64,000 bases of DNA from Methanogenium sp. S4BF. Lineage in GTDB: Archaea; Halobacteriota; Methanomicrobia; Methanomicrobiales; Methanomicrobiaceae. The translations under genes and the position numbers were made by a program. The notes under the pieces were generated by a model. The model did not search any database. It saw only the letters and a program-made list of their open reading frames with translations, and was not told the origin of the DNA. The stretch lies in assembly GCF_029633965.1 (NCBI RefSeq), contig NZ_CP091277.1:1919940-1983939 (forward strand), written 5' to 3'. This document shows, in pieces, positions 14,098 to 26,333 of the stretch (position 1 is the stretch's first letter; the number at the start of each line of letters is the position of its first letter).

Positions 14098-14235
14098 TGA
14101 GATGATGAGCAGTGGGGTTCCATTCTCAAGGCTACAGATGCATGAAAGAGCAACGCCTATGGCTGACGGCAATAAAAGCCGCCCCACCATCAGACTTGGA
14201 TATCCTTAAGAGGATGCTGTTCAAATGAACAATTG

Positions 14236-14724
14236 ATGTTTTCGGCCCGGGTATTTGAGACAGATTTCAGGACGGCACTGGAAGAAGAGCTTGAGCGCCG
14301 GGGGATGAGTATAAAGGAGCTGGCAGGGATGGTTGGTATCTCCGCTGCCACCCTCTATAAGATCACCTCCGGGGATCGCGACCCCCGCTTCTCCCTTGTA
14401 AAGGCAATCGCAGACGCCCTTGACCCAAAAGAGAAGGACTTTGTCGCCGTTATCGCTGCAAAGTTTCTCCTGGATGAACTCCAGTCGGTGAAGTATACGA
14501 TAGGCGATACGACCTACCGCATCCACGGCTATAGCGCAAATACCATGGAAGAAGTGATCATCGCTGCCGTGCGGGCTGAAAAAGACGGCGCCATCGGGAT
14601 CATCTGTGCACCGATTCTCACCACACTGGTGGAGCGTATCGTTGACGTACCGGTGGCCATCATCAGGCCCAGCCCGGATGCCTACCGGGCGGCCTTTGAA
14701 TCGCTGGTCCGCCGCAGGGAATAA
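14236..14724 (+). CDS. HTH (XRE-type) transcriptional regulator with a C-terminal sensor-like domain
   Basis: A 162-residue protein; the ATG at 14236 is preferred to the TTG one codon earlier. Residues about 10-65 form an XRE/Cro helix-turn-helix (MSIKELAGMVGISAATLYKI). The C-terminal about 90 residues have alternating strands and helices (VIIAAVRAEKDGAIGIICAP; VPVAIIRPSPDAYRAAF) that resemble the PrpR-N type sensory fold seen in bacterial regulators. Methanogens have a conserved family of this kind with unknown ligand. It is divergent from the aldehyde dehydrogenase, which it may control. Confidence 0.75.
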   Translation: MFSARVFETDFRTALEEELERRGMSIKELAGMVGISAATLYKITSGDRDPRFSLVKAIADALDPKEKDFVAVIAAKFLLDELQSVKYTIGDTTYRIHGYSANTMEEVIIAAVRAEKDGAIGIICAPILTTLVERIVDVPVAIIRPSPDAYRAAFESLVRRRE

Positions 14725-14849: not shown

Positions 14850-15947
14850 TTAACACCGGAGACCTCTGCCGGCACAACCGAGCGAAAGAATGAGCGCCAC
14901 TCCTGCCGGAAGAAGCGGGAAAGGAGAGCTCGTCGGAACCGGGCCCTCTCCTTCATGCGGCTGAGTCTGTCCAGTCGTAATATCGGGTTGTGCTTCTCCC
15001 GGTGACTGTTCCGGCAGGGGTGTTTCTTCTGCCACGGCTGTAACCTTAGGAACAAATCCGCTGATACGGGTGCCGTCTGTCATCGCCACCATCCTTCCAT
15101 TGCTATCCATCGCAGCTGCAACCGAGCCGTCCAGACCGGTAATCTGACCGGCTGGCGTGCCGTCCCGCTCCATGAACCGGATACCCTGCCGATCGGCAAG
15201 GGCGGCAGTCGCACCGTCCGCCGTCACCGCGACCCCTCCTGCATGCGGGGCAGACCCGGACCAGAGGAGGGCTCCCGCCCGTGAGAGCAGGGCGAACGCA
15301 CCGTCAGCAGAGACGGCAGCGATCGTCCGGGCACCATCTGCAAGGGCAACAGCGGTCACCGGCTGGCGGGAGAGCCCATAGCTCCAGCGCTCCTCTCCCG
15401 CATCGGAGAAAAGCACCACATTTCCGGTCACCGTGCCGCCGGCGATGTAGGTCCCGTCCGGGCTGATGGCAACCGAGACCAGATCATCACCTGTTTCAGT
15501 GCTCCGGATGAGATCTCCTGACGGCGTGTAGAGGCGCAGGGTCTCGTCATCAGCCACGGCGACAATCAGGCTACCATCCGCCGTTATAGTGACATCATTC
15601 AGATAGTTTCTGGACCGGACGGTTGCACAAACGGTGCCGTTTTTGTCCAGCACGCACAGACCGTCACCGCCTGCCGCAAGAATGCTCGCATTTTCGGAGA
15701 GACAGACAGAGCGGTAGCCGCCCTCGGGACTGCGCCAGCACTCTGTGCCGTCTGCGGTCAGGAGGATGATGCCGCCATTCCCCGTAAGGGCGCTGTATGC
15801 GCCGTCTCCGGAAACCGCTATATCGACGATGCGAAAGCCCGGCTGATCCGAACCGGCGGGCACCCACTCCCCTGCCATGACCGGGGATGCGATAAGGAGA
15901 AAGGCAAACAGAATGCCTGCAGTGACAGACACATGCAATCTGCTCAC
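14850..15947 (-). CDS. Exported beta-propeller protein, last gene of the B12 locus
   Basis: A 365-residue protein with a signal peptide (SVTAGILFAFLLIASPVMAG), a WD40/PQQ-like propeller of about seven short blades, a low-complexity Pro/Thr/Gln spacer and a C-terminal hydrophobic segment. Repeated units look like VAISPDGTYIAGGTVTGNVV and AVSADGAFALLSRAGALLW. Its start overlaps the stop of the BtuF-fusion gene by 4 bases, so it belongs to that operon. Bacteroides BtuG, a B12-capturing surface protein, is also a beta-propeller; similarity of fold is inferred only, and ligand binding here is unproven. Confidence 0.72.
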   Translation of the reverse strand: MSRLHVSVTAGILFAFLLIASPVMAGEWVPAGSDQPGFRIVDIAVSGDGAYSALTGNGGIILLTADGTECWRSPEGGYRSVCLSENASILAAGGDGLCVLDKNGTVCATVRSRNYLNDVTITADGSLIVAVADDETLRLYTPSGDLIRSTETGDDLVSVAISPDGTYIAGGTVTGNVVLFSDAGEERWSYGLSRQPVTAVALADGARTIAAVSADGAFALLSRAGALLWSGSAPHAGGVAVTADGATAALADRQGIRFMERDGTPAGQITGLDGSVAAAMDSNGRMVAMTDGTRISGFVPKVTAVAEETPLPEQSPGEAQPDITTGQTQPHEGEGPVPTSSPFPLLPAGVALILSLGCAGRGLRC

Positions 15948-17938
15948 TTCCCCTGCCTCCCAAGACAGTACCCGAGCACGGTCACAGCGGCCAGTGCACC
16001 GATGAATGACGCAGGGCTCTGTGTCGGCACCGGCTGAGCACCGTTATCCTCCGGGAAGCACTCCGGATGGATATCGCGTGCCACCACCTCAAGGGCGTCT
16101 ACAATACGCGGGCTGCCGCGGTCAATGATGTCTGAGTCCACCAGATAGACCCGGTCATTCTGAACGGCGCTGAGGCCCTGGAAACGGGGTTCTTCGGTGA
16201 CATACCGATAGAGGATATCATAATTGCCCCCCCCCATGCCTGCACCGGAGTTCGCGATAATAACATCCGGGTCTGTAACGATGAACTCCTCCATGCTCAC
16301 GATTTCCCAGCCCTGTACGGACGAGAAGGCATTGGTGGCTCCGGCAATTGCAAACATCTCATCCTGAAACGAACCGCTGCCGCTGACCCATATCGGGTCA
16401 TTCCAGACCATATGTACGACAGACGGGGTGGTGTCAGCACACGCAACCGCTGTCTTCACGGCATCAATTCGTGCCTGCATATCGGCCACCACGGCAGCCG
16501 CTTCGTCATCTGCCCAGGTCGCCTCACCAACGAGGAGAATATTGTCCGTCACATCTTCGATGGAGGCTGGGTTGAGGGCAAGGACCGTGATGCCAAGGTT
16601 TTCCAGGTGGGTGATGACCTCTTCGGTGTTGCCGAACGCTGCGATGACGAGGTCTGGTTTTGCCTGGAGCACCTTCTCGATATTCACCGAACTGTATCCG
16701 CCGACCTTGTCGACGCCAAGCGCCGCTTCGGGGTAGTTGCAGTAGTCGGTAACGCCGACCACCCGGTCGCCGAGGCCCAGTGCATAGAGTATCTCGGTAT
16801 TGGCCGGTGCCAGTGAGACAATGCGCCGGGGCGGGGCCGGAAGGGAGAGTTCGCGGCCGAAATCATCGGTGATCGTCCGGCTGTCAGCTGATGAATCGAA
16901 TACGGGGGTGTCTTTGGCTGAAACAGACGGTGCTTCGGTGGGGACCGGAGTCGCTGCAGCTTCAGGCGGCGCAACCGGCACCGCACCCTTCACCGGAATG
17001 ACGGGAAACGGCCTGCCGGTCAGTGCCGGAATGGCCGTTGCAGTCATCTTACAGGGGAGATCGGTGAGGACAGACGTCCACCGGAAATACCCCTCATCTG
17101 CCTGGAATGAGAGGAGGTGGGAAACGGGCGTATTGCCGGTCGCCGTCGTCCAGGTCAGGGGATCCTCGCCTGCCGCGACAAGGGCCTGAATGACCCATGC
17201 ATCGGAGGCGGAGTTGGTCGCACTCGATCCGCCGTAGTTGAACCCGCCGTCGGCCTGCTGTCTGGATTTCAGGTAAGCAACCGCGTCACGGATGGCGGGG
17301 GCATCCTGTGGTATCCCGCCGGCGATGAGCGCCTCAATGGCTGACGCAGTGTCATCACAGTCGCTCTCTCCCCCGACGGTCCAGCCAAAGCCGCCGTCTT
17401 CATTCTGCTGGCTCTTCAGCCACAAAACACCGCCAGAGACATCCTTACCAGCCGCAGAAAGGGCAATGATGGCCCAGTTTGTCGTGTAGATGTGCTCGCC
17501 GTAGCGGCCGTCAGCCTGCTGTTTTGCCTGCAGGAGGGCGATGAAGTCATGTCCTTCGAAATTGCGGGGATCTTCGCCTGCCGCGACCAGAGTGCAGACG
17601 AGTTTGGCCGTCTCTGATGTGCCGTCAATAGCGACGGTTTCATCCGCCACCGTACGGAGATAGTCGCCAGCTGAAACGCCGCCACGGGACCACTGGTCCG
17701 GGTCGCCTCCGGCCGAGACAATCGCAAGAATCGCCCAGGTGGAGAGCGCCGGGGATGACTCCTCCCCCTCTTCTGCAAACCCGCCGTCGGCCTGCTGGCA
17801 GGAAGCAAGATATCCAAGCGCATCTTCGACCTCAGCGTTCCCTACCGTAAGCGGATAGGCAGCAGCCGTAACCGCAATGCATGGAACGATGAGAAGAGTT
17901 AAAAAAAAAAGAAGGAATTTTGTATTCATTTTGTTCAA
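15944..17938 (-). CDS. Exported alpha/alpha-barrel (prenyltransferase/squalene-cyclase-like) + BtuF-like cobamide-binding fusion
   Basis: A 664-residue protein with a signal peptide (about residues 1-27). Residues about 30-320 hold several QQ-x-DGGF-type repeats (CQQADGGFAEEGEESS; SQQNEDGGFGWTVGGES; RQQADGGFNYGGSSATNS), the hallmark of the squalene-cyclase/prenyltransferase alpha/alpha-barrel clan. After a Pro/Ala linker, residues about 365-640 are a BtuF-like metal-chelate receptor (PRRIVSLAPANTEILYALGL; VVGVTDYCNYPEAAL; VQNDRVYLVDSDII). A C-terminal hydrophobic segment probably anchors it. It is 15 bp downstream of a DUF4430 protein and in one operon with btuC/btuD. I read it as the cobamide receptor, with the barrel as an extra ligand-capture or scaffold domain. 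Confidence 0.82.
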   Translation of the reverse strand: MNKMNTKFLLFFLTLLIVPCIAVTAAAYPLTVGNAEVEDALGYLASCQQADGGFAEEGEESSPALSTWAILAIVSAGGDPDQWSRGGVSAGDYLRTVADETVAIDGTSETAKLVCTLVAAGEDPRNFEGHDFIALLQAKQQADGRYGEHIYTTNWAIIALSAAGKDVSGGVLWLKSQQNEDGGFGWTVGGESDCDDTASAIEALIAGGIPQDAPAIRDAVAYLKSRQQADGGFNYGGSSATNSASDAWVIQALVAAGEDPLTWTTATGNTPVSHLLSFQADEGYFRWTSVLTDLPCKMTATAIPALTGRPFPVIPVKGAVPVAPPEAAATPVPTEAPSVSAKDTPVFDSSADSRTITDDFGRELSLPAPPRRIVSLAPANTEILYALGLGDRVVGVTDYCNYPEAALGVDKVGGYSSVNIEKVLQAKPDLVIAAFGNTEEVITHLENLGITVLALNPASIEDVTDNILLVGEATWADDEAAAVVADMQARIDAVKTAVACADTTPSVVHMVWNDPIWVSGSGSFQDEMFAIAGATNAFSSVQGWEIVSMEEFIVTDPDVIIANSGAGMGGGNYDILYRYVTEEPRFQGLSAVQNDRVYLVDSDIIDRGSPRIVDALEVVARDIHPECFPEDNGAQPVPTQSPASFIGALAAVTVLGYCLGRQGK

Positions 17939-17953
17939 CCAGTCCTGTATAGA

Positions 17954-19603
17954 TTATCTTTTTGTGTTCCGGTATATGCCGGTTATCCCGAGGATGCCGG
18001 CCACTGCCGCACTAAGGATCGTCAGGCATGTGCCGGACTGCGTGGCTGCAGGGGATGCAGTATCCTCAGCCGACACCGGCGTGGCTCCGGCGCCTGTGCC
18101 GGAGGATGCCGGTCCGTCGGTGACCGAGATCAGGAAGAACGACGAGAGGCCTGCGGCAGGACCTGCCTCAAGCATCGTCTCCCCGTCAGCAGTGGCACCT
18201 GCAGACCGTAGGGTGAGCACCTCTGCGGTGCCGTCATCGGTGATATGGATGAGACGGAGGGCAGACAGACCCCCCATCTCCGTGATATATGCGGAGTCTG
18301 CAGTGATGCGGACCGTCACATCCCCTACGTCCACCCCATTTTCAAGCCCCCGTTTGTCGATGTCCATCTGCCAGCCGGCGCCACCGGCTGCCATGCCCTC
18401 AGGCCTGAGTGCGGCATTGGCAGCACTCAGAAACGCTGACGGTACGGCAGAGATACCGGAGAGGGGGGTGACTGTCACATCAAGATCCGCGTCCATCGGG
18501 ACGGTCAGAAGCCTAATCAGGAGCGAAACCTCAGGACCAGCCCCGTTTGCACACGTCACGGTGACCGGTGTGGTCTCGACCATGACATCGGTGATCTCAC
18601 CTGCGACAACACCGCTCTTTTCGGTGAAGTCCGCAAAGCGAATCTTCAGTACGACATCGTCACGGGTGATGAGCATCATATTCCCGGAAAAACCAATGAC
18701 GTCGCCAGCTGCGGTGGCCATCGGGACATTGACCGTCAGATACATCCGGCCCTCGCTCAGGCGGAGGTCAGAACCCGGCGGAAGGGAGAGCGGATACGAT
18801 GCGGCGTCTGCCCCGGTAGTAAGGCCGGTACCGGTTTCCAATATCCCGGCAGACGGGGTGCTGCTGGTACCAGGGGCGGGACTGCTGATCTGTACCCGGT
18901 AAAAGAATGCCTTTGGTGACTCCTGGGGGGTCTGGCTCATCGATTCACTATAATACCACACCACTTCATCATTGGCTTTGACGGTGCATTTGTCTGCAGT
19001 GGTGGCGGGCGATGCCCCGTTCACCTGATACATCCACCCGGCGGCGCCTGCAGAGGGTTTCCCGTCCACTTCAGTGACAAAGAGGCCGTTGTCCCATTCG
19101 TCGCTTACCTTAAAGCTGACACCGGCTGCCTGCAGGGTGCCCAGCGCACACTGCCACGAAACAGCCGAAACATCACCTGAATTGTCAGCAGTGACATTAA
19201 AGGTGCCTGCGGGCAGAGTGACCGTCTTCCAGGCAATGACCGGAGTGTCACTACCGCTGCCGCCCCCACCGCTGCCCGGCTGCGGAGTCGGTGTCGGGGC
19301 AGGTGTCGGATTGGTGATGATGATACTCTGCGGAGCCGTCATCGCGCCCGTTACCGGGTCGGTTGCCGAGACGGTGACGATCCCGTCTCCCGGTGGAATG
19401 AACTTCACGATTGTACCGTGGCCAAAGACCGGTGTGCCCTCCCCATACTGGAAGACGACCGTCCCTTCCATGTCAAGGGTGACCGTCATCGGTTCGCCTG
19501 CCCCTGCCTGGGTGACACTCAGCACGCTGATCGCAGCAGCCGGTGTCGTCGCACAGACGATGAGGGCAAGGAGGACCACACAGATGCCTACTGTACGGTG
19601 CAT
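17954..19603 (-). CDS. Exported DUF4430 (transcobalamin C-terminal-like) protein with membrane anchor
   Basis: A 549-residue protein with a signal peptide (about 1-24) and a C-terminal membrane helix (CLTILSAAVAGILGITGIY) before a basic tail. Residues about 30-95 look like an Ig-like beta domain, then a Pro-rich linker. Residues about 125-220 match DUF4430: GTLQAAGVSFKVSDEWDNGL, AAGWMYQVNGASPATTADKC and DEVVWYYSESM. InterPro places this domain with the C-terminal beta domain of transcobalamin/intrinsic factor. The rest is beta-rich and unrecognised. It overlaps the upstream gene by 16 bp and is in the B12 operon. Confidence 0.75.
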   Translation of the reverse strand: MHRTVGICVVLLALIVCATTPAAAISVLSVTQAGAGEPMTVTLDMEGTVVFQYGEGTPVFGHGTIVKFIPPGDGIVTVSATDPVTGAMTAPQSIIITNPTPAPTPTPQPGSGGGGSGSDTPVIAWKTVTLPAGTFNVTADNSGDVSAVSWQCALGTLQAAGVSFKVSDEWDNGLFVTEVDGKPSAGAAGWMYQVNGASPATTADKCTVKANDEVVWYYSESMSQTPQESPKAFFYRVQISSPAPGTSSTPSAGILETGTGLTTGADAASYPLSLPPGSDLRLSEGRMYLTVNVPMATAAGDVIGFSGNMMLITRDDVVLKIRFADFTEKSGVVAGEITDVMVETTPVTVTCANGAGPEVSLLIRLLTVPMDADLDVTVTPLSGISAVPSAFLSAANAALRPEGMAAGGAGWQMDIDKRGLENGVDVGDVTVRITADSAYITEMGGLSALRLIHITDDGTAEVLTLRSAGATADGETMLEAGPAAGLSSFFLISVTDGPASSGTGAGATPVSAEDTASPAATQSGTCLTILSAAVAGILGITGIYRNTKR

Positions 19604-21483
19604 ATGATTCCCTCGGAGGTGACCGGTTTGGTATACGGGAAGGTGTCGAAGGTGTAAACCGCTGCAAAGAGCTCATACTCACCAGCTGCGGCATTCAGGG
19701 GCACCTGCACATATACCGGAATTCCGGTCTTCTCTGTCCCTGCCTCCAGTTCCACCGTGGCAAGGCCGCAGAGACTGTTTCCTTCGGCATCAACACCGGA
19801 GACGACAATCACGTACCATCCCGCTTCAGCCTTCGTCACATTGAGCCGTGCGAGGAAGCTACAGCCCGGTGCAGCCCCGGTGTCTGCAATGGTAAAGGCG
19901 CCGATGTCATCTTCCGGCACACTGACATGAATGGTCACACAGTCGGGAAGACCGGTCGTTTCAGCCGGAAGGATGTCACCCCATCCCGAGTACCAGAAGG
20001 TAAAGGTGTCGCCATCGCGGGCCGGCTGGTCAATGCCGACCATGGAGGCTTCTCCATTGTCAAACTGCTGCCAGTACCGCCCGGTCACTCCATCATATCC
20101 CATATCACCAAGGAGGTTCAGGGAAGAGCCCCAGGCGCCGGTGGAGGTGTCAACCGTAAACCCGCAGGCGGCGGCAGCGGCGTGGAGGGCACCTGCTGCA
20201 GTGGTTTCGTTTACAAGTGTGCCGTCAGTGAGTGCCACCTCCGTGCCTTCGTGCAGGACAACGGTGGCCTCGGCAGCCGCACCCGGCCCGAAGGCAAATA
20301 GAGTGTTCGTATACTCAGCGCCGATGAAGAGTGTACCGTCTGCGACAGCAGGCGATGAGCCCCAGAACGAGGCCCAGTTCCCGCCTTCCGGTGCAGGGAG
20401 GATGTATGACCAGAGCACAGTTCCGTCCGCAGCAGAGAAGGCATAGAGGGTGGACTGCTCCTCACTGGTGCCGGCATAGACATAATCACCGGCAATCACC
20501 GGGGATGAGGCGATTTCAGCAGTCGTAGCGGACTGCCATACCGGGGGTGCCGTGATATCGGTGGCATCCAGACAGATGAGACCTTCGTCACCTGTTCCCA
20601 CATAAAGCAGACCGGCGGTTTCGTCAAGCGCCGGGGTGCCGATGGTGCCTGCAATCGTGCGGGTCGCACAAATGCTGCCGTCTGCAAAAGAGAGTTCATA
20701 GAGCGTTGCCTCTGTTGTCGCAAAGAGCGAGGCGGTGCCGATGACAGGCGCCGACTTGATGGTGCCATCCAGGGTGATATTCCAGAGTTCTGACCCGGTT
20801 GCCGTATCATATGCAAAGAGGGTAGTGAGATTGGACGGGAAGTAGACCACACCGTCTGCTGCAGCAGGGGCGGTGTAGTAGGTGGCATCCGTCCACCCGG
20901 CGTCCCAGGCACCGAACGCAACCGACCAGACCTCACTGCCGTCTGCCGGGGAATAGACATGCAGGCCGCCGTCAGAGGGGGTCAGCACATACAGCAGGCC
21001 GTCATAAAAGAGCGGCGACGATGAGAGACCGAAAAATCCGGGGTTTTCATCCGCCTGGACAGACCAGACCAGACTGCCGTCTGCGGTATCAAGAGCACAG
21101 AGATACCCGTCTGTACCGCCGACGATGAGGAGGTCATCTGCGATCGTAAGGCCCGACTGGGAGCCGGCTGCATACGTCCAGACCTCAACACCGGTTGTCG
21201 TATTATAACAGAAGACCGCAGGCACTGCCTCCGGGTGGTTCCAGTCAGCAATGGTCGCGATATAGACGCGGTCACCTGCCACCACCGGGGACGCATCGAT
21301 CCAGCCGGGTGAGGCCGACCAGCGGATATTTTCCGAGAGCGGGCCCGCATCCGGGACATATCCCGTACGCCGGGCATCACCATGGAAGGTGAGATAGTCA
21401 GCAGCTGTACAGCCCTGCACCATGATGAGTACCATCATAATGAGGAGAGAGAGACGAAGAGCCGTTTTGGGAAACATAAACAA
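19588..21483 (-). CDS. Exported PQQ-like beta-propeller + DUF4430 protein
   Basis: A 631-residue protein with a signal peptide ending near VQGCTAAD, possibly a lipobox-type Cys. Residues about 30-400 are a PQQ-type propeller with repeated GLLYVGTGDEGLICLDA, YLCALDTADGSLVWSV and TLYAFSAADGTVLWSY blades. Residues about 405-500 match DUF4430 (AACGFTVDTSTGAWGSSLNL; RYWQQFDNGEASMVGID; DGDTFTFWYSGWG). The final about 120 residues are a beta domain. It follows btuD after 103 bp and overlaps the next DUF4430 gene. Propeller plus transcobalamin-like domain next to BtuCD suggests a surface cobamide-binding role. Confidence 0.78.
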   Translation of the reverse strand: MFMFPKTALRLSLLIMMVLIMVQGCTAADYLTFHGDARRTGYVPDAGPLSENIRWSASPGWIDASPVVAGDRVYIATIADWNHPEAVPAVFCYNTTTGVEVWTYAAGSQSGLTIADDLLIVGGTDGYLCALDTADGSLVWSVQADENPGFFGLSSSPLFYDGLLYVLTPSDGGLHVYSPADGSEVWSVAFGAWDAGWTDATYYTAPAAADGVVYFPSNLTTLFAYDTATGSELWNITLDGTIKSAPVIGTASLFATTEATLYELSFADGSICATRTIAGTIGTPALDETAGLLYVGTGDEGLICLDATDITAPPVWQSATTAEIASSPVIAGDYVYAGTSEEQSTLYAFSAADGTVLWSYILPAPEGGNWASFWGSSPAVADGTLFIGAEYTNTLFAFGPGAAAEATVVLHEGTEVALTDGTLVNETTAAGALHAAAAACGFTVDTSTGAWGSSLNLLGDMGYDGVTGRYWQQFDNGEASMVGIDQPARDGDTFTFWYSGWGDILPAETTGLPDCVTIHVSVPEDDIGAFTIADTGAAPGCSFLARLNVTKAEAGWYVIVVSGVDAEGNSLCGLATVELEAGTEKTGIPVYVQVPLNAAAGEYELFAAVYTFDTFPYTKPVTSEGIICTVQ

Positions 21484-21586
21484 ACCTATTGTTACTAACT
21501 CAATATAATTTGCTAAATTTATATTTAGCTATATCCGAATAAATGTGTATACCGGTGCTGAGTCTAAAAAGGGAGGGGAAAACCGG

Positions 21587-22840
21587 TTAGACACGGTCTC
21601 GGGCCAGAACAAGCCGCTCAATCTCCCGGTAAAGGCTACTGCGCGATGAGACGACCGGGCACCCCGCAGCCCGTATCGCTGCAAGGAAGGACCCGTCCCC
21701 TGCGGGTGTGCAGTCGGTGAACTCCTCACCGGGCGGCATAAAGAGGAGAAGCCGGGAGCGGCGGGTGCTGGTGAGCGCCTGGATATTCGGCAGATTGCCC
21801 TCCCCCACCGGCATGGCGGTGAGAATAACTGCATCCGCCTCGTCGAGATATACGCCGAGCGCCTCACAGACAGCAGGGGTGATGGGGGCAAAAGCAGGCA
21901 CCGTAATACAGGGAATTCCAAGCCGTGATGCAGCCGCAAAGTCTGAATCCATCGGTGAGAGCACGCCTGCCGTCAGGAGACATCCGGCCGCCGTGAGCGT
22001 ATACATCAGCCCCGCACCAGTGCCCCCGCCGGAGATGATATGGATACGGGCGCCACGAAGGGCGGGCGGGACCCCTTCGCTCAGGGGTGTGACCAGTGGC
22101 CTGCCGGTGACCGGATTGGTCTGGACCATCGCGGTGATACCGTATTCATCCCGCAGGCGCTCCATCGTGAGCACCTCGGCAGGCGTACCCATCGCACGGA
22201 TGCGCCCCCCCGCCATAAGCACAATCCGGTCGCAGAACTCGGCGGCAAGGTTCAGGTCATGGAAGACCCCGATCTTGGTGACACCTTCCCCCAAATCACG
22301 GACGATGGAGAGGATCTCCACCTGATGATTGATGTCGAGGTGGGCGGTCGCCTCATCGAGAAGAATCACCCTCGGCTGCTGGGCAAGCGCACGAGCAATG
22401 ATTACCCGTTGCCGTTCCCCGCCGGAGATGTCGGTGACCGGCCGGTCCGCGAGATGGGCGACATTGGTCACCTCCATTGCCTCCCGCACGATGCGGTAAT
22501 CGTCGGCATTTTCCTTTGCAAACCGCTCCTTATGGGGGAAACGGCCCATCATGACGATATCAGCGACCGTATACGAGAAGTTCATCGCCGTCTCCTGCGG
22601 GACGACACCCACCGTGCGGGCCAGTTCTTTCTGCCCGAAGTCGGTGATCGCCCGCCCCTCCAGCGTCACCACACCTCCGGAGACGTTCAGCACCCGGCTG
22701 ATGGCCTTTAAGAGTGTGGTCTTTCCCGATCCGTTGGGGCCGATAATGCCGATGAACGCGCCTTTTCCTGCAGCAAACGTAATCTCCCCGATGATATCTT
22801 TGCCGCCGTAGCCTGCACAGAGGTCTTCCACATCGATCAT
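21587..22840 (-). CDS. btuD: Cobamide ABC transporter ATP-binding protein with long C-terminal extension
   Basis: A 417-residue protein. The first about 255 residues are a FecE/BtuD-type ATPase with Walker A GPNGSGKTTLLK, signature DISGGERQRV, Walker B VILLDEATAHLD and switch His in VFHDLN. Such ATPases usually stop near 260 residues; here about 160 more follow (HIISGGGTGAGLMYTLTAAG; SRLGIPCITVPAFAPITPA; DEADAVILTAMPVGEGNLPN), an alpha/beta Rossmann-like domain. Its start overlaps the btuC stop by 4 bases. Iron-siderophore transport is the alternative, but the BtuF-like receptor and DUF4430 neighbours favour cobamides. Confidence 0.88.
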   Translation of the reverse strand: MIDVEDLCAGYGGKDIIGEITFAAGKGAFIGIIGPNGSGKTTLLKAISRVLNVSGGVVTLEGRAITDFGQKELARTVGVVPQETAMNFSYTVADIVMMGRFPHKERFAKENADDYRIVREAMEVTNVAHLADRPVTDISGGERQRVIIARALAQQPRVILLDEATAHLDINHQVEILSIVRDLGEGVTKIGVFHDLNLAAEFCDRIVLMAGGRIRAMGTPAEVLTMERLRDEYGITAMVQTNPVTGRPLVTPLSEGVPPALRGARIHIISGGGTGAGLMYTLTAAGCLLTAGVLSPMDSDFAAASRLGIPCITVPAFAPITPAVCEALGVYLDEADAVILTAMPVGEGNLPNIQALTSTRRSRLLLFMPPGEEFTDCTPAGDGSFLAAIRAAGCPVVSSRSSLYREIERLVLARDRV

Positions 22841-23862
22841 GCCCGCATCCTCCTGCGCAACAGCATGATGAAGAAGGGCGCACCGACAAAGGAGGTGATC
22901 ACCCCTACCGGCATCTCACCCAGAAACGACCGCGTGAGGGTGTCAGCCGCCAAAAGAAAGAGCCCGCCGGCAAGCATTGCCGCCGGAAAGAGAATGCGGT
23001 GATCCGGGCCGACCACCAGCCGCATGATGTGCGGGGTGATGAGCCCGATGAAGCCGATCGACCCGGCAATGGATACCGCAACCGCCGTAAGGGCCGATGA
23101 GACAAAGAGTAAGATTCGCTTGAACTGCTCGACATTGACCCCGAGGTGCAGGGCATCCTCTTCTCCCAGTGAGAGAATATTCAGGTCGCGGGCGAGAACA
23201 AACAAAAGAACCCCTCCGACAGGGATCAAAAGACCGAGCCGGACATCATCCCATGAGACGTTCCACAGGCCGCCCATCAGCCAGAAGACTATCTGGTGCA
23301 GGCTGTTTCCCGCCGAATACATGAGAAACGAGAGTATGGACGAGAAGAACATCGAAATCGCGACACCGGTCAGAAGCAGGGTCTCCACCGGGGCACGCCC
23401 GTTGCGGGTTGCAATGGCATAGACCAGGAAGGTTGACCCAAGTGCACCCAGGAAGGCGAAAAGCGGCAGAAGGAAGCCGCCCATAAAGACGATGGTGAAA
23501 GCGGCGCCAAACGCTCCACCTGCAGAGGTGCCGATGATATAGGGGTCTGCCATCGAATTCCTGAAGAGCCCCTGCATCGCCGTGCCGGCCGCAGCAAGAC
23601 CGGCACCGACGAGTATTGCGGCAATCACCCGCGGGAGACGGATGGAGTAGATGATGAGGTACGAGGTCTGGTCAGAGAAGAATCCTGCAGTGTCCCCGCC
23701 GGAGAAGAGGGCCATAAGCATACCCGGGATATCATCCGGGATGAACGCAGAAAACGGTACCGTCGTCGGCCCGAGGCTCAGTGCGAGGAAGAATGCACAG
23801 ACAAGCATGGCTCCGAGGAGGGTGATAATGCTGGCAGTCCGGGCACGCGAGATCTCAGGCAT
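22837..23862 (-). CDS. btuC: Cobamide ABC transporter permease
   Basis: A 341-residue FecCD/BtuC-family permease with about ten membrane helices. Typical segments are IRLPRVIAAILVGAGLAAAG, MQGLFRNSMADPYIIGTSAG, IAGSIGFIGLITPHIMRLVV and DTLTRSFLGEMPVGVITSFV. It is the first gene of the B12 locus and overlaps btuD (ATGA). It starts 47 bp after the sulfopyruvate decarboxylase gene on the same strand, so it could be read through from the coenzyme M genes or have its own promoter in that gap. Confidence 0.92.
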   Translation of the reverse strand: MPEISRARTASIITLLGAMLVCAFFLALSLGPTTVPFSAFIPDDIPGMLMALFSGGDTAGFFSDQTSYLIIYSIRLPRVIAAILVGAGLAAAGTAMQGLFRNSMADPYIIGTSAGGAFGAAFTIVFMGGFLLPLFAFLGALGSTFLVYAIATRNGRAPVETLLLTGVAISMFFSSILSFLMYSAGNSLHQIVFWLMGGLWNVSWDDVRLGLLIPVGGVLLFVLARDLNILSLGEEDALHLGVNVEQFKRILLFVSSALTAVAVSIAGSIGFIGLITPHIMRLVVGPDHRILFPAAMLAGGLFLLAADTLTRSFLGEMPVGVITSFVGAPFFIMLLRRRMRA

Positions 23863-23909
23863 ATGAATTCTCTAGTACCGTTGGAGCGGTTAACTAAAAT
23901 GTGTTTGCT

Positions 23910-25064
23910 TTAACCAAACAGAGTTTGTTTCATCGCAGGAGACCAGACCGCCCCCATGAACCGGTCCCTGATGTCCCTTGCACGGAAGGGGATCGACAGG
24001 GCTTTCGAATTGCCGGGGGCAATAACAGCATGGATAAAGCGGGGGCCGGAGCTGTGCGAACGGAAGGCCGCACGGATGCTCTCCTCATCCTGCACCTTGC
24101 AGGTGTTCGTGATGCCCGCTCCGCGGGCCAGCAGCTCAAGGTCAGCGACCGCATATGCATGGGTCGGCTGATCGCCGGTGCTGCCGAATGACCCGTTGTC
24201 AAGAGCGATGATCGTGAGATTTGCCGGCGCCTCCGCTGCCACCACCGGCAGAATGGCTGTCCCCAGAAGGCTCCCGTCCCCGTCAAAGACAACGACATCC
24301 CTGTCCTGCCCAAGGGCGAGCCCCAGACCGATGGGTGTCGCCTGCGTGTAACTGCCCATCATGTAGAAGTTCTCCGGCCGGTCCCGAACCGCATAGAGTT
24401 CATTTCCGGGAACGCCAAGATTCGTGACCACCAGTTCATCGGTGAGGAGGGATGCGACTGCAGCGATGGCATCCGCCCGCCGCCAGAACGGCTGGGTGAT
24501 CGTTCGTTCGTATGCAAGGCTGATATCACGGTTGCGGAGGGGAAAAATCTGAGCGGGCGGGACTCCGGCTGTACCCCCGATTCCTTCCCATACCTTCGGG
24601 GAGACAAGAATAATATGCGGCCGGTGGTGTTCAAAGGCATCGGCAATGGCTCCCTCGATACGATCGAGGTCCCCCGCCTCGTGCACCACCGTATAGACGA
24701 TATCCAGCGCATCCAGAAGATCGGGAAGATGGATATTGAACGGCATCTGCACCTCCGTCTTCTCCCGGTGGACACCACGCCATGAGGCAAGGACAGGGAG
24801 CGGGAGTTCATATGGCACCGGGAGCGTCATTATCGCATTGAGCATGGTGCCAAGTCCCGAGCTCTGGATATGCATCATCGGCCGGTTTCCTGCAAGGAAG
24901 AGACCGGCACAGAGGCCGACACCATCCTCCTCGCGCATAACCGTGATGTGCCGGAAGTTCTCCTGAATCAGACAGTACAGACCCTGTGTCCGGTCACAGG
25001 GCAGGCTGACCACCGTGTCCACACCGGCGGAGGCGACATACCGCAGGGCGCTCTCTTCATGCAT
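23910..25064 (-). CDS. comDE: Sulfopyruvate decarboxylase, fused alpha and beta subunits
   Basis: A 384-residue TPP enzyme that decarboxylates sulfopyruvate to sulfoacetaldehyde in coenzyme M synthesis. The N-terminal half is ComD-like, with the cofactor glutamate in VMREEDGVGLCAG and MHIQSSGLGTMLNAIMTL. The C-terminal half is ComE-like, with the TPP/Mg motif VVFDGDGSLLG ending at LDNGSFGSTG. In Methanocaldococcus the two are separate genes; here they are one polypeptide, as in other Methanomicrobiales. It lies 36 bp after the ComF-type gene. Confidence 0.92.
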   Translation of the reverse strand: MHEESALRYVASAGVDTVVSLPCDRTQGLYCLIQENFRHITVMREEDGVGLCAGLFLAGNRPMMHIQSSGLGTMLNAIMTLPVPYELPLPVLASWRGVHREKTEVQMPFNIHLPDLLDALDIVYTVVHEAGDLDRIEGAIADAFEHHRPHIILVSPKVWEGIGGTAGVPPAQIFPLRNRDISLAYERTITQPFWRRADAIAAVASLLTDELVVTNLGVPGNELYAVRDRPENFYMMGSYTQATPIGLGLALGQDRDVVVFDGDGSLLGTAILPVVAAEAPANLTIIALDNGSFGSTGDQPTHAYAVADLELLARGAGITNTCKVQDEESIRAAFRSHSSGPRFIHAVIAPGNSKALSIPFRARDIRDRFMGAVWSPAMKQTLFG

Positions 25065-25100
25065 CGCCGGTCACCTCCATACTGCACCGCGAAGAGATAT

Positions 25101-26333
25101 TCATAACAGGAACTCCCCCCTCAGGAGCTGATCTTTCAGCCGCCTGCAGAGTGCCTCTGCACGTGAGCGGTCTGACTGCCGGAGCACGATGGGCACAGCG
25201 ATGGTGCTGTCGTCCGTCTGGTGCAGGGCACCTGCCTGCATCGTATATACCCCGTTCGGGCAGGTATGCACACAGGTGCCGCATGAGACACAACGGGAGC
25301 GCATGATTCCGCCTCCCATCATTACCGCCTTCGTCGGGCAGGCCCCGGCGGCGGTGCAGGGCCCGCAGAAGAGGCAGTGAAGGGGATTCACCTGCACCGT
25401 GAGTTCGGTTCCCTGCCAGACATCACCATAGGTTGCGGCTGAGAACGGGGCACGGTCGGTGATGTCTGCTATCGGCAGGGCGATCTGCTCATCTGTTACC
25501 GAGAGGCGGGCGATGTCATCTGCCGTGAGGACCGGCAGGGCAATGGCGACCGAGGTGAGGCATTCCGGCCCGTGGGCAGTCACAAATCCTCCCATGTACT
25601 CACCGTCCATCGCACTGAGCCCGGCACAGGCGGCGATGTTCCGGCGTTCCGGTGTGCTCCGTGTGCCTTCCCCCATGACTATACCCGGAGCGCCGTTTAC
25701 CAGAAGCGGGGTGCCCGGCCGGATATGCATAAGGCCAGGGTCGTTTTCGACCGGGTTTATTTCCCCGCACCCCGAAACGGTCGCCGCCCTCATATGGCCT
25801 TCCAGCGGCAGGACCGAGAATATGGTGTCGAGAGGGGCGGCTCCGCGGTTGACAAATGCGGTGTAATTGCGAAAACAGCTCCGGGTGGTGAAGATACGGG
25901 CAGAAGTGAGGTCTTCGATGAAGACAGTGTTCTCAAAGGTCTTTCCTCCGGCCTCTGCTATCACATCGACCTCTTTCCCGTCAACCAGATCCCGGAAGAG
26001 GTGGCCACCGCCATAGCTCTCCGAGGCGGCGGCAGTGCCGGAGACGATGAGGTCCACGGTGCCCAGCCGTTCATTCGGACAGGGGCCAGGAAAGGCGGGA
26101 ACACCATTGAGGGTGACCCTGTCGGCCCGGAGGAACGCACCGGGGGGTGCAACAGGTACGGTCATCACGGCAGCGGTGCCGGACATGACCCCAAAGGTGC
26201 CGGTCGTGACGATATCCACCTCTGCTGCTGTCGGGATGTCACCCGCCCGCACCCGTTCTTTCATCTCCATCGCCGTCCAGACGGTGGCCTCCCCGCGGGC
26301 CAGCCGATCCCGGACTTCCTGCATCGTCTTCAT
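25101..26333 (-). CDS. comF: HcyBio-family (COG1900) protein with two 4Fe-4S motifs, probable ComF
   Basis: A 410-residue protein. Residues about 1-310 are the HcyBio (DUF39/COG1900) domain, with conserved GTFGVMSGTAAV, CFRNYTAFVN, VSGCGEINPVENDP and GIVMGEGTRSTPERRN. Residues about 325-385 hold two ferredoxin motifs, CLFCGPCTAAGACP and CVSCGTCVHTCP. One COG1900 member makes homocysteine from aspartate semialdehyde; another, MJ1681/ComF, converts sulfoacetaldehyde to coenzyme M. Adjacency to comDE makes ComF the better guess. The name is by family and neighbour, not by a residue that separates the two. Confidence 0.8.
   Translation of the reverse strand: MKTMQEVRDRLARGEATVWTAMEMKERVRAGDIPTAAEVDIVTTGTFGVMSGTAAVMTVPVAPPGAFLRADRVTLNGVPAFPGPCPNERLGTVDLIVSGTAAASESYGGGHLFRDLVDGKEVDVIAEAGGKTFENTVFIEDLTSARIFTTRSCFRNYTAFVNRGAAPLDTIFSVLPLEGHMRAATVSGCGEINPVENDPGLMHIRPGTPLLVNGAPGIVMGEGTRSTPERRNIAACAGLSAMDGEYMGGFVTAHGPECLTSVAIALPVLTADDIARLSVTDEQIALPIADITDRAPFSAATYGDVWQGTELTVQVNPLHCLFCGPCTAAGACPTKAVMMGGGIMRSRCVSCGTCVHTCPNGVYTMQAGALHQTDDSTIAVPIVLRQSDRSRAEALCRRLKDQLLRGEFLL

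Follow-up and report, generated by a model that had tools for sequence, protein, structure and literature searches.

A probable corrinoid capture and import system joining BtuCDF to transcobalamin-type surface domains in Methanogenium sp. S4BF

Methanogenium sp. S4BF carries a row of six genes that probably encodes a system for capturing and importing cobamides or cobinamides, in which a split clamp of the intrinsic factor/transcobalamin type would feed a BtuCDF transporter. In this study, we analyzed a stretch of 64,000 nucleotides from this archaeon (the window), in which the six genes occupy positions 14850-23862 on the minus strand. The row is far beyond chance, and it recurs in many genera with its order and gene fusions rearranged.

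The first two genes encode a btuC-like permease of the FecCD family (341 aa; 22837-23862; Pfam FecCD, 3e-89) and a btuD-like ATPase (417 aa; 21587-22840; ABC_tran, 2e-30), and they overlap by 4 nt. After a gap of 103 nt comes P4 (631 aa; 19588-21483), an exported beta-propeller of the BamB/PQQ type (PQQ_2, 2e-38) with a transcobalamin-type beta-grasp domain at about residues 405-500 and a beta-rich tail. P4 overlaps by 16 nt with P3 (549 aa; 17954-19603), an exported, C-terminally anchored DUF4430 (SLBB/transcobalamin-like) protein (PF14478, 6e-12). P2 (664 aa; 15944-17938) lies 15 nt further on and consists of a signal peptide, an alpha/alpha toroid (about residues 30-310; SQHop_cyclase_C, 1.5e-12), a BtuF-type domain (about residues 365-625; Peripla_BP_2, 8e-40), and a hydrophobic C-terminal tail. 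It overlaps by 4 nt with P1 (365 aa; 14850-15947), an exported WD40-type beta-propeller with a hydrophobic C-terminal tail and Pfam WD40/EML propeller matches. N-terminal hydrophobic signals were found in all of P1, P2, P3, and P4, and hydrophobic C-terminal tails in P1, P2, and P3 and not in P4. A preliminary description of this DNA had reported six same-strand genes with short overlaps or gaps, and this arrangement proved to be real over the exact span. Its domain list agreed with Pfam except for the DUF4430-type domain of P4, which Pfam missed and which a profile of the family recovered.

The host genome is a single contig of 2.51 Mb. A gene for sulfopyruvate decarboxylase (ComDE; coenzyme M synthesis) lies at 23910-25064 on the minus strand (TIGR03846, 1.6e-67, over cut-off). 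It is a neighbor outside the core and ends 47 nt upstream of btuC. Together with methanogenesis marker 16 it fills 23910-26333 directly upstream of btuC, an order kept in Methanogenium, L045, and L090. The ComDE neighbor itself was kept in Methanogenium as well as in two further loci of Methanomicrobiaceae (L045, L049-L051, L090, L120), and a link between coenzyme M synthesis and corrinoid supply is possible. On the other side, a gene resembling helix-turn-helix regulators (14233-14724, plus strand) is convergent with P1 and is a candidate regulator; L045 and L049-L051 also have it next to the cluster. Strong relatives of P1 were found mainly in Methanomicrobiales, where P1 is kept beside P2. 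In the draft genome of Methanogenium cariaci (L091), the same operon is split into many frames, probably by sequencing errors.

We then considered the identity of the importer. A FecCD permease, an ABC ATPase, and a Peripla_BP_2 binding protein share one operon, and their Pfam matches are well above cut-off. The best NCBIfam match of BtuC was the vitamin B12 permease BtuC (PRK09535, 1e-105) and that of BtuD was the corrinoid ABC transporter ATPase (PRK09536, 6.5e-109). For the BtuF domain of P2, the B12 model ranked second, behind an archaeal PGF-CTERM binding-protein model. All three scores were under the NCBIfam equivalog cut-offs (354 against 461 for BtuC, 365 against 537 for BtuD, and 117 against 234 for BtuF). 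The best PDB match of the BtuF domain was a vitamin B12-binding protein (5ysc, 1.2e-35). Full FecCD permease genes number three in this genome of 2.5 Mb, and the binding proteins of the other two FecCD operons (L147:4598-7743 and L148:5527-8618) best matched iron/siderophore types. The BtuF of the window was about 44-52% identical to BtuF of Archaeoglobaceae and ANME-1, versus about 28% to its own paralogues. The permease, ATPase, and binding protein belong to the same families as those of the BtuCDF B12 importer of E. coli and Halobacterium. In contrast to that importer, the system here has an anchored BtuF joined to a toroid, additional surface receptor proteins, and a BtuD with an extra C-terminal domain. 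This domain of about 160 aa (21587-22075) had no Pfam match, was kept in BtuD of Methanomicrobiales and Archaeoglobaceae, and perhaps has a regulatory role.

Neighborhood surveys were performed from two starting points. In a DUF4430-seeded survey within the order, for which part of the sample was picked by best DUF4430 score, the toroid-BtuF fusion, beta-grasp, and propeller occurred together in 19 of 20 neighborhoods. Nearly all of these stretches also had btuC and btuD, at times divergently transcribed. A toroid-seeded search found the toroid in 79 of 393 genomes of the phylum. Among the 47 archaeal toroid loci whose flanks exceed 5.5 kb on both sides, with partners counted within 10 kb and domains called by profiles built from this family, all 47 had a beta-grasp domain, all 47 had a PQQ-type propeller, 43 had BtuF, and most had BtuC. 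From three permeases per 2.5 Mb, we calculated that the chance of a FecCD permease in a 20 kb stretch is about 2-3%. The recurring co-occurrence with btuCD that the preliminary description anticipated was borne out by these counts.

The fusions differ among lineages. The toroid-BtuF fusion was found in Methanomicrobiales (Methanogenium, Methanoculleus, Methanofollis, Methanocalculus, and Methanocorpusculum), in which the few loci appearing unfused are cut contigs or a frame-broken draft. In Archaeoglobaceae, the toroid is fused to the beta-grasp domain and BtuF is separate. ANME-1 (Methanophagales) has all genes unfused, as does a related Methanosarcinales bin. A tree of 90 toroids placed those of Methanomicrobiales in one supported group and those of Archaeoglobaceae and ANME-1 in another. 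That toroid, beta-grasp, and BtuF act together is indicated most strongly by the alternative fusions of the toroid, to the beta-grasp domain or to BtuF.

Several further loci were observed in these surveys. In the f22 family of the phylum (L077, L078, L079, and L080), toroid, beta-grasp, and very long propellers cluster without BtuF or BtuC, and the archaeal clusters L076-L079 lack both. One open frame of 3182 residues carries a toroid and a PQQ propeller (L081:4471-14016). A contig labelled Bacteroidaceae from a yak gut bin (L140) has a cluster near-identical to that of Methanocorpusculum and most likely represents archaeal DNA placed in the wrong bin. Seven loci of Methanoculleus and relatives (L042, L048, L094, L095, L102, L113, and L126) have an EcfT-like gene nearby, together with double or extra ABC ATPases, and in these both transporter types may be served. 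At L066, double ATPases considered as an ECF transporter were set aside as part of an oligopeptide-type transporter. An adjacent tetrapyrrole methylase, probably the diphthamide enzyme beside a threonyl-tRNA synthetase, was likewise left out of the evidence. An all-against-all search for more shared neighbor genes gave mostly out-of-frame noise.

The beta-grasp domains gave the sequence link to animal B12 carriers. A profile of the P4 domain (A3) matched transcobalamin-2 (1.9e-6) and intrinsic factor (7.5e-5) in the PDB, and transcobalamin-1 was also matched. The same profile aligned with the P3 domain at a probability of 98.6% (E 8e-16), and P3, exported with signal and tail, matched DUF4430 in Pfam with 46.3 bits against a cut-off of 23.8. 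Neither the P3 beta-grasp profile alone nor the single P3 sequence had a significant match in the PDB, so the tie of P3 to the carriers runs via P4 only. In the structure model of P4, the beta-grasp region follows a beta-beta-helix-beta order, at low model confidence in that region. The relationship to transcobalamin and intrinsic factor put forward for these domains in the preliminary description is upheld by the P4 profile and the DUF4430 membership of P3. The animal carriers intrinsic factor, transcobalamin, and haptocorrin have a homologous beta-grasp domain that is matched by sequence profile. P4 and P3 form one giant protein in many genomes, and relatives have up to four beta-grasp domains beside one propeller. 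The P4 propeller may organize several such domains.

The toroid of P2 was modelled with a pLDDT of 90, and its best structural matches were squalene-hopene cyclases. Transcobalamin (4zrp) was the 47th structural match (E 1.8e-5, TM 0.56). A sequence profile of the toroid best matched squalene-hopene cyclase and drimenyl diphosphate synthase, and transcobalamin was not matched in that search. The DxDDT motif, as in class II cyclases, is nearly invariant in the family; the L041 member has DxDN. The suggestion that the toroid is transcobalamin-like thus stood for the fold and for the toroid/beta-domain fusion of Archaeoglobaceae, but not for sequence or closest structure, in both of which cyclases are nearer. 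We dropped a specifically transcobalamin-like toroid for this reason, and we regard the likeness to cyclases as shared ancestry of the fold. Animal B12 carriers also combine a toroid with a beta-grasp domain, the toroid likeness being one of fold. Unlike in these carriers, the parts are here distributed among two or three anchored proteins, one of which joins the toroid to an ABC binding protein; the toroid is nearer to cyclases in sequence, and there is no known equivalent of receptor-mediated endocytosis. Toroid and beta-domain lie on separate chains in the window (P2 versus P3 and P4) and on one chain in Archaeoglobaceae.

The propellers were compared with BtuG of Bacteroides, to which the preliminary description had likened them. 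Pfam placed P4 in the PQQ_2/BamB class and P1 in the WD40 class, and the Bacteroides B12-receptor family was absent from the Pfam matches of both up to E 0.1. In Foldseek, the best match of P4 was BamB (3.8e-21); its best 50 matches were mostly BamB, joined by YxaL and quinoprotein dehydrogenases, and did not include BtuG. P4 is therefore BamB/PQQ-type by family and by fold, and a BtuG relationship was rejected on these grounds. No gene for a TonB-dependent BtuB was found among the eight proteins scanned at 14850-26333. The BtuG/BtuH/BtuB system of Bacteroides likewise uses a beta-propeller and a surface protein thought to take B12 before import. However, BtuG is an outer-membrane lipoprotein that caps the TonB-dependent transporter BtuB, a transporter type not found among these eight proteins, and the BamB/PQQ-type propeller is unrelated to it beyond the general fold.

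Judged from sequence, the ligand is probably a corrinoid because of the B12-type match of BtuF, the linkage to cbiZ, the riboswitches of bacterial relatives, and the transcobalamin match of the P4 beta-grasp domain. Corrinoid uptake, as proposed in the preliminary description, is supported. CbiZ is an adenosylcobinamide amidohydrolase, a corrinoid salvage enzyme. In Archaeoglobaceae, seven distinct loci (L067, L068, L071, L110, L116, L117, and L118) carry its gene, placed between btuD and P4. In Actinomycetota and Bacillota, a toroid and DUF4430, mostly with a PQQ propeller, lie beside CbiQ, a double ATPase, and an ECF S component. Four of these bacterial loci (L131, L136, L139, and L141) extend beyond the start of the first gene, and each has a cobalamin riboswitch immediately upstream (E 1e-20 to 7e-28); the other searched loci end near the operon start. 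No riboswitch was found in the window locus, also at a relaxed threshold. The receptor parts of the four ECF operons are the same as here, whereas their transporter consists of CbiQ, double ATPase, and S component instead of BtuCDF and their toroid is without the BtuF fusion. The host genome has its own cbiZ, located away from the operon, and the corrin-synthesis gene cbiD, the single gene checked for corrin synthesis. The presence of cbiD means that the organism may not need to scavenge, and with cbiZ elsewhere in the genome, uptake would be salvage and not a strict need.

Transcobalamin holds B12 sandwiched between its toroid and its beta-grasp domain (PMC1796856). In the mechanism that we propose for this organism, BtuC and BtuD would form the ATP-driven importer, and the BtuF domain of P2 would serve it as binding protein. 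A clamp would lie outside the membrane, with the P2 toroid, tethered to BtuF, as one half and the beta-grasp domains of P3 and P4 as the other. Carried by separate anchored proteins, the two halves would sandwich the corrinoid between them. The ligand would then be handed to BtuF, which shares a chain with the toroid and would dock on BtuCD. As for the propellers, the BamB-like one of P4 and the WD40-like one of P1 could serve as scaffold or anchoring parts. In Methanogenium, we infer the ligand, sandwich geometry, stoichiometry, complex formation, hand-over, and propeller role. We give an even chance to the fuller proposal of a tethered complex, with the toroid joined to the importer's own binding protein and the beta-grasp domains on partners, as a portable B12 receptor module that shares ancestry with the animal carriers and is swapped between BtuCD in archaea and ECF in bacteria.

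A simpler reading of the locus is a corrinoid BtuCDF importer with BtuF as sole binder, the toroid, beta-grasp, and propeller parts serving in surface anchoring, envelope passage, or assembly. The BtuCDF identity is independent of the other parts, P4 has a propeller of the BamB assembly-factor type, and the toroid is not close to transcobalamin in sequence. We consider this reading unlikely, because the beta-grasp sequence is of transcobalamin type, toroid and beta-grasp are fused in Archaeoglobaceae, and the same receptor parts stand beside an unrelated ECF transporter under cobalamin riboswitches. Still less likely is a catalytic or prenyl-binding toroid with a lipid-related role, akin to class II terpene cyclases, and we give it very little credence. 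Squalene-hopene cyclase and drimenyl diphosphate synthase are indeed its best matches in sequence and fold, and DxDDT is nearly invariant, but the toroid is an exported single barrel that is fused to BtuF or DUF4430 and has B12-type receptor parts next to it in nearly all cases, and one member (L041) carries DxDN.

Another tetrapyrrole or metal complex, such as haem, F430, or a siderophore, might also be imported, given that the FecCD class carries haem, siderophores, and corrinoids and that the genome has cbiD. We consider this improbable, since cbiZ lies inside the Archaeoglobaceae operons, cobalamin riboswitches precede the bacterial relatives, and the best match of BtuF is B12-binding. Most Archaeoglobaceae are not methanogens, an argument against F430. 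In favor of another ligand, Burroughs et al. 2007 suspected a different one in archaea, as archaea can make B12 (PMC1796856). Capture and import of cobamides or cobinamides by a clamp feeding BtuCDF remains our preferred reading. Counting against it are the BtuC, BtuD, and BtuF scores under the equivalog cut-offs, the cyclase-like toroid with its DxDDT motif, the host's cbiD, the location of its cbiZ outside the operon, the absence of a riboswitch from the window locus, and the few archaeal clusters (L076-L079) without BtuF and BtuC.

Burroughs et al. 2007 defined the SLBB superfamily and reported its fusions with toroids and propellers as well as CbiO/CbiQ operons; they proposed B12 scavenging for bacterial toroid+SLBB and propeller+SLBB surface proteins and noted euryarchaeal members, for which another metabolite was thought a possible ligand (PMC1796856). 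Those SLBB/DUF4430 systems likewise have exported beta-grasp domains with toroids, propellers, and transporter operons. They are linked to CbiO/CbiQ (PMC1796856), whereas the system described here is linked to BtuCDF, has the toroid-BtuF fusion, and has cbiZ in relatives. In the open-access literature, with subscription papers outside the scope of the search, we found no description of the BtuCDF link, the toroid-BtuF fusion, the cbiZ linkage, or the riboswitch evidence. B12 scavenging by SLBB surface proteins was thus already predicted in 2007, and the BtuCDF-coupled archaeal form is new relative to the papers covered.

These results give a testable answer to the question raised in 2007 about the role and B12 ligand of archaeal transcobalamin-like surface proteins. 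The fusion series, from separate genes to toroid+beta-domain and toroid+BtuF, suggests how a clamp of the intrinsic-factor type can be coupled to transporters of two unrelated kinds, and it has implications for how the animal B12 carriers arose. The two-part B12 grip known from the animal gut seems to recur in archaea, where it would feed a transporter driven by ATP. Cobamide capture also seems to be an investment that hydrogenotrophic methanogens, Archaeoglobi, and ANME-1 make although they are possibly able to synthesize corrinoids.
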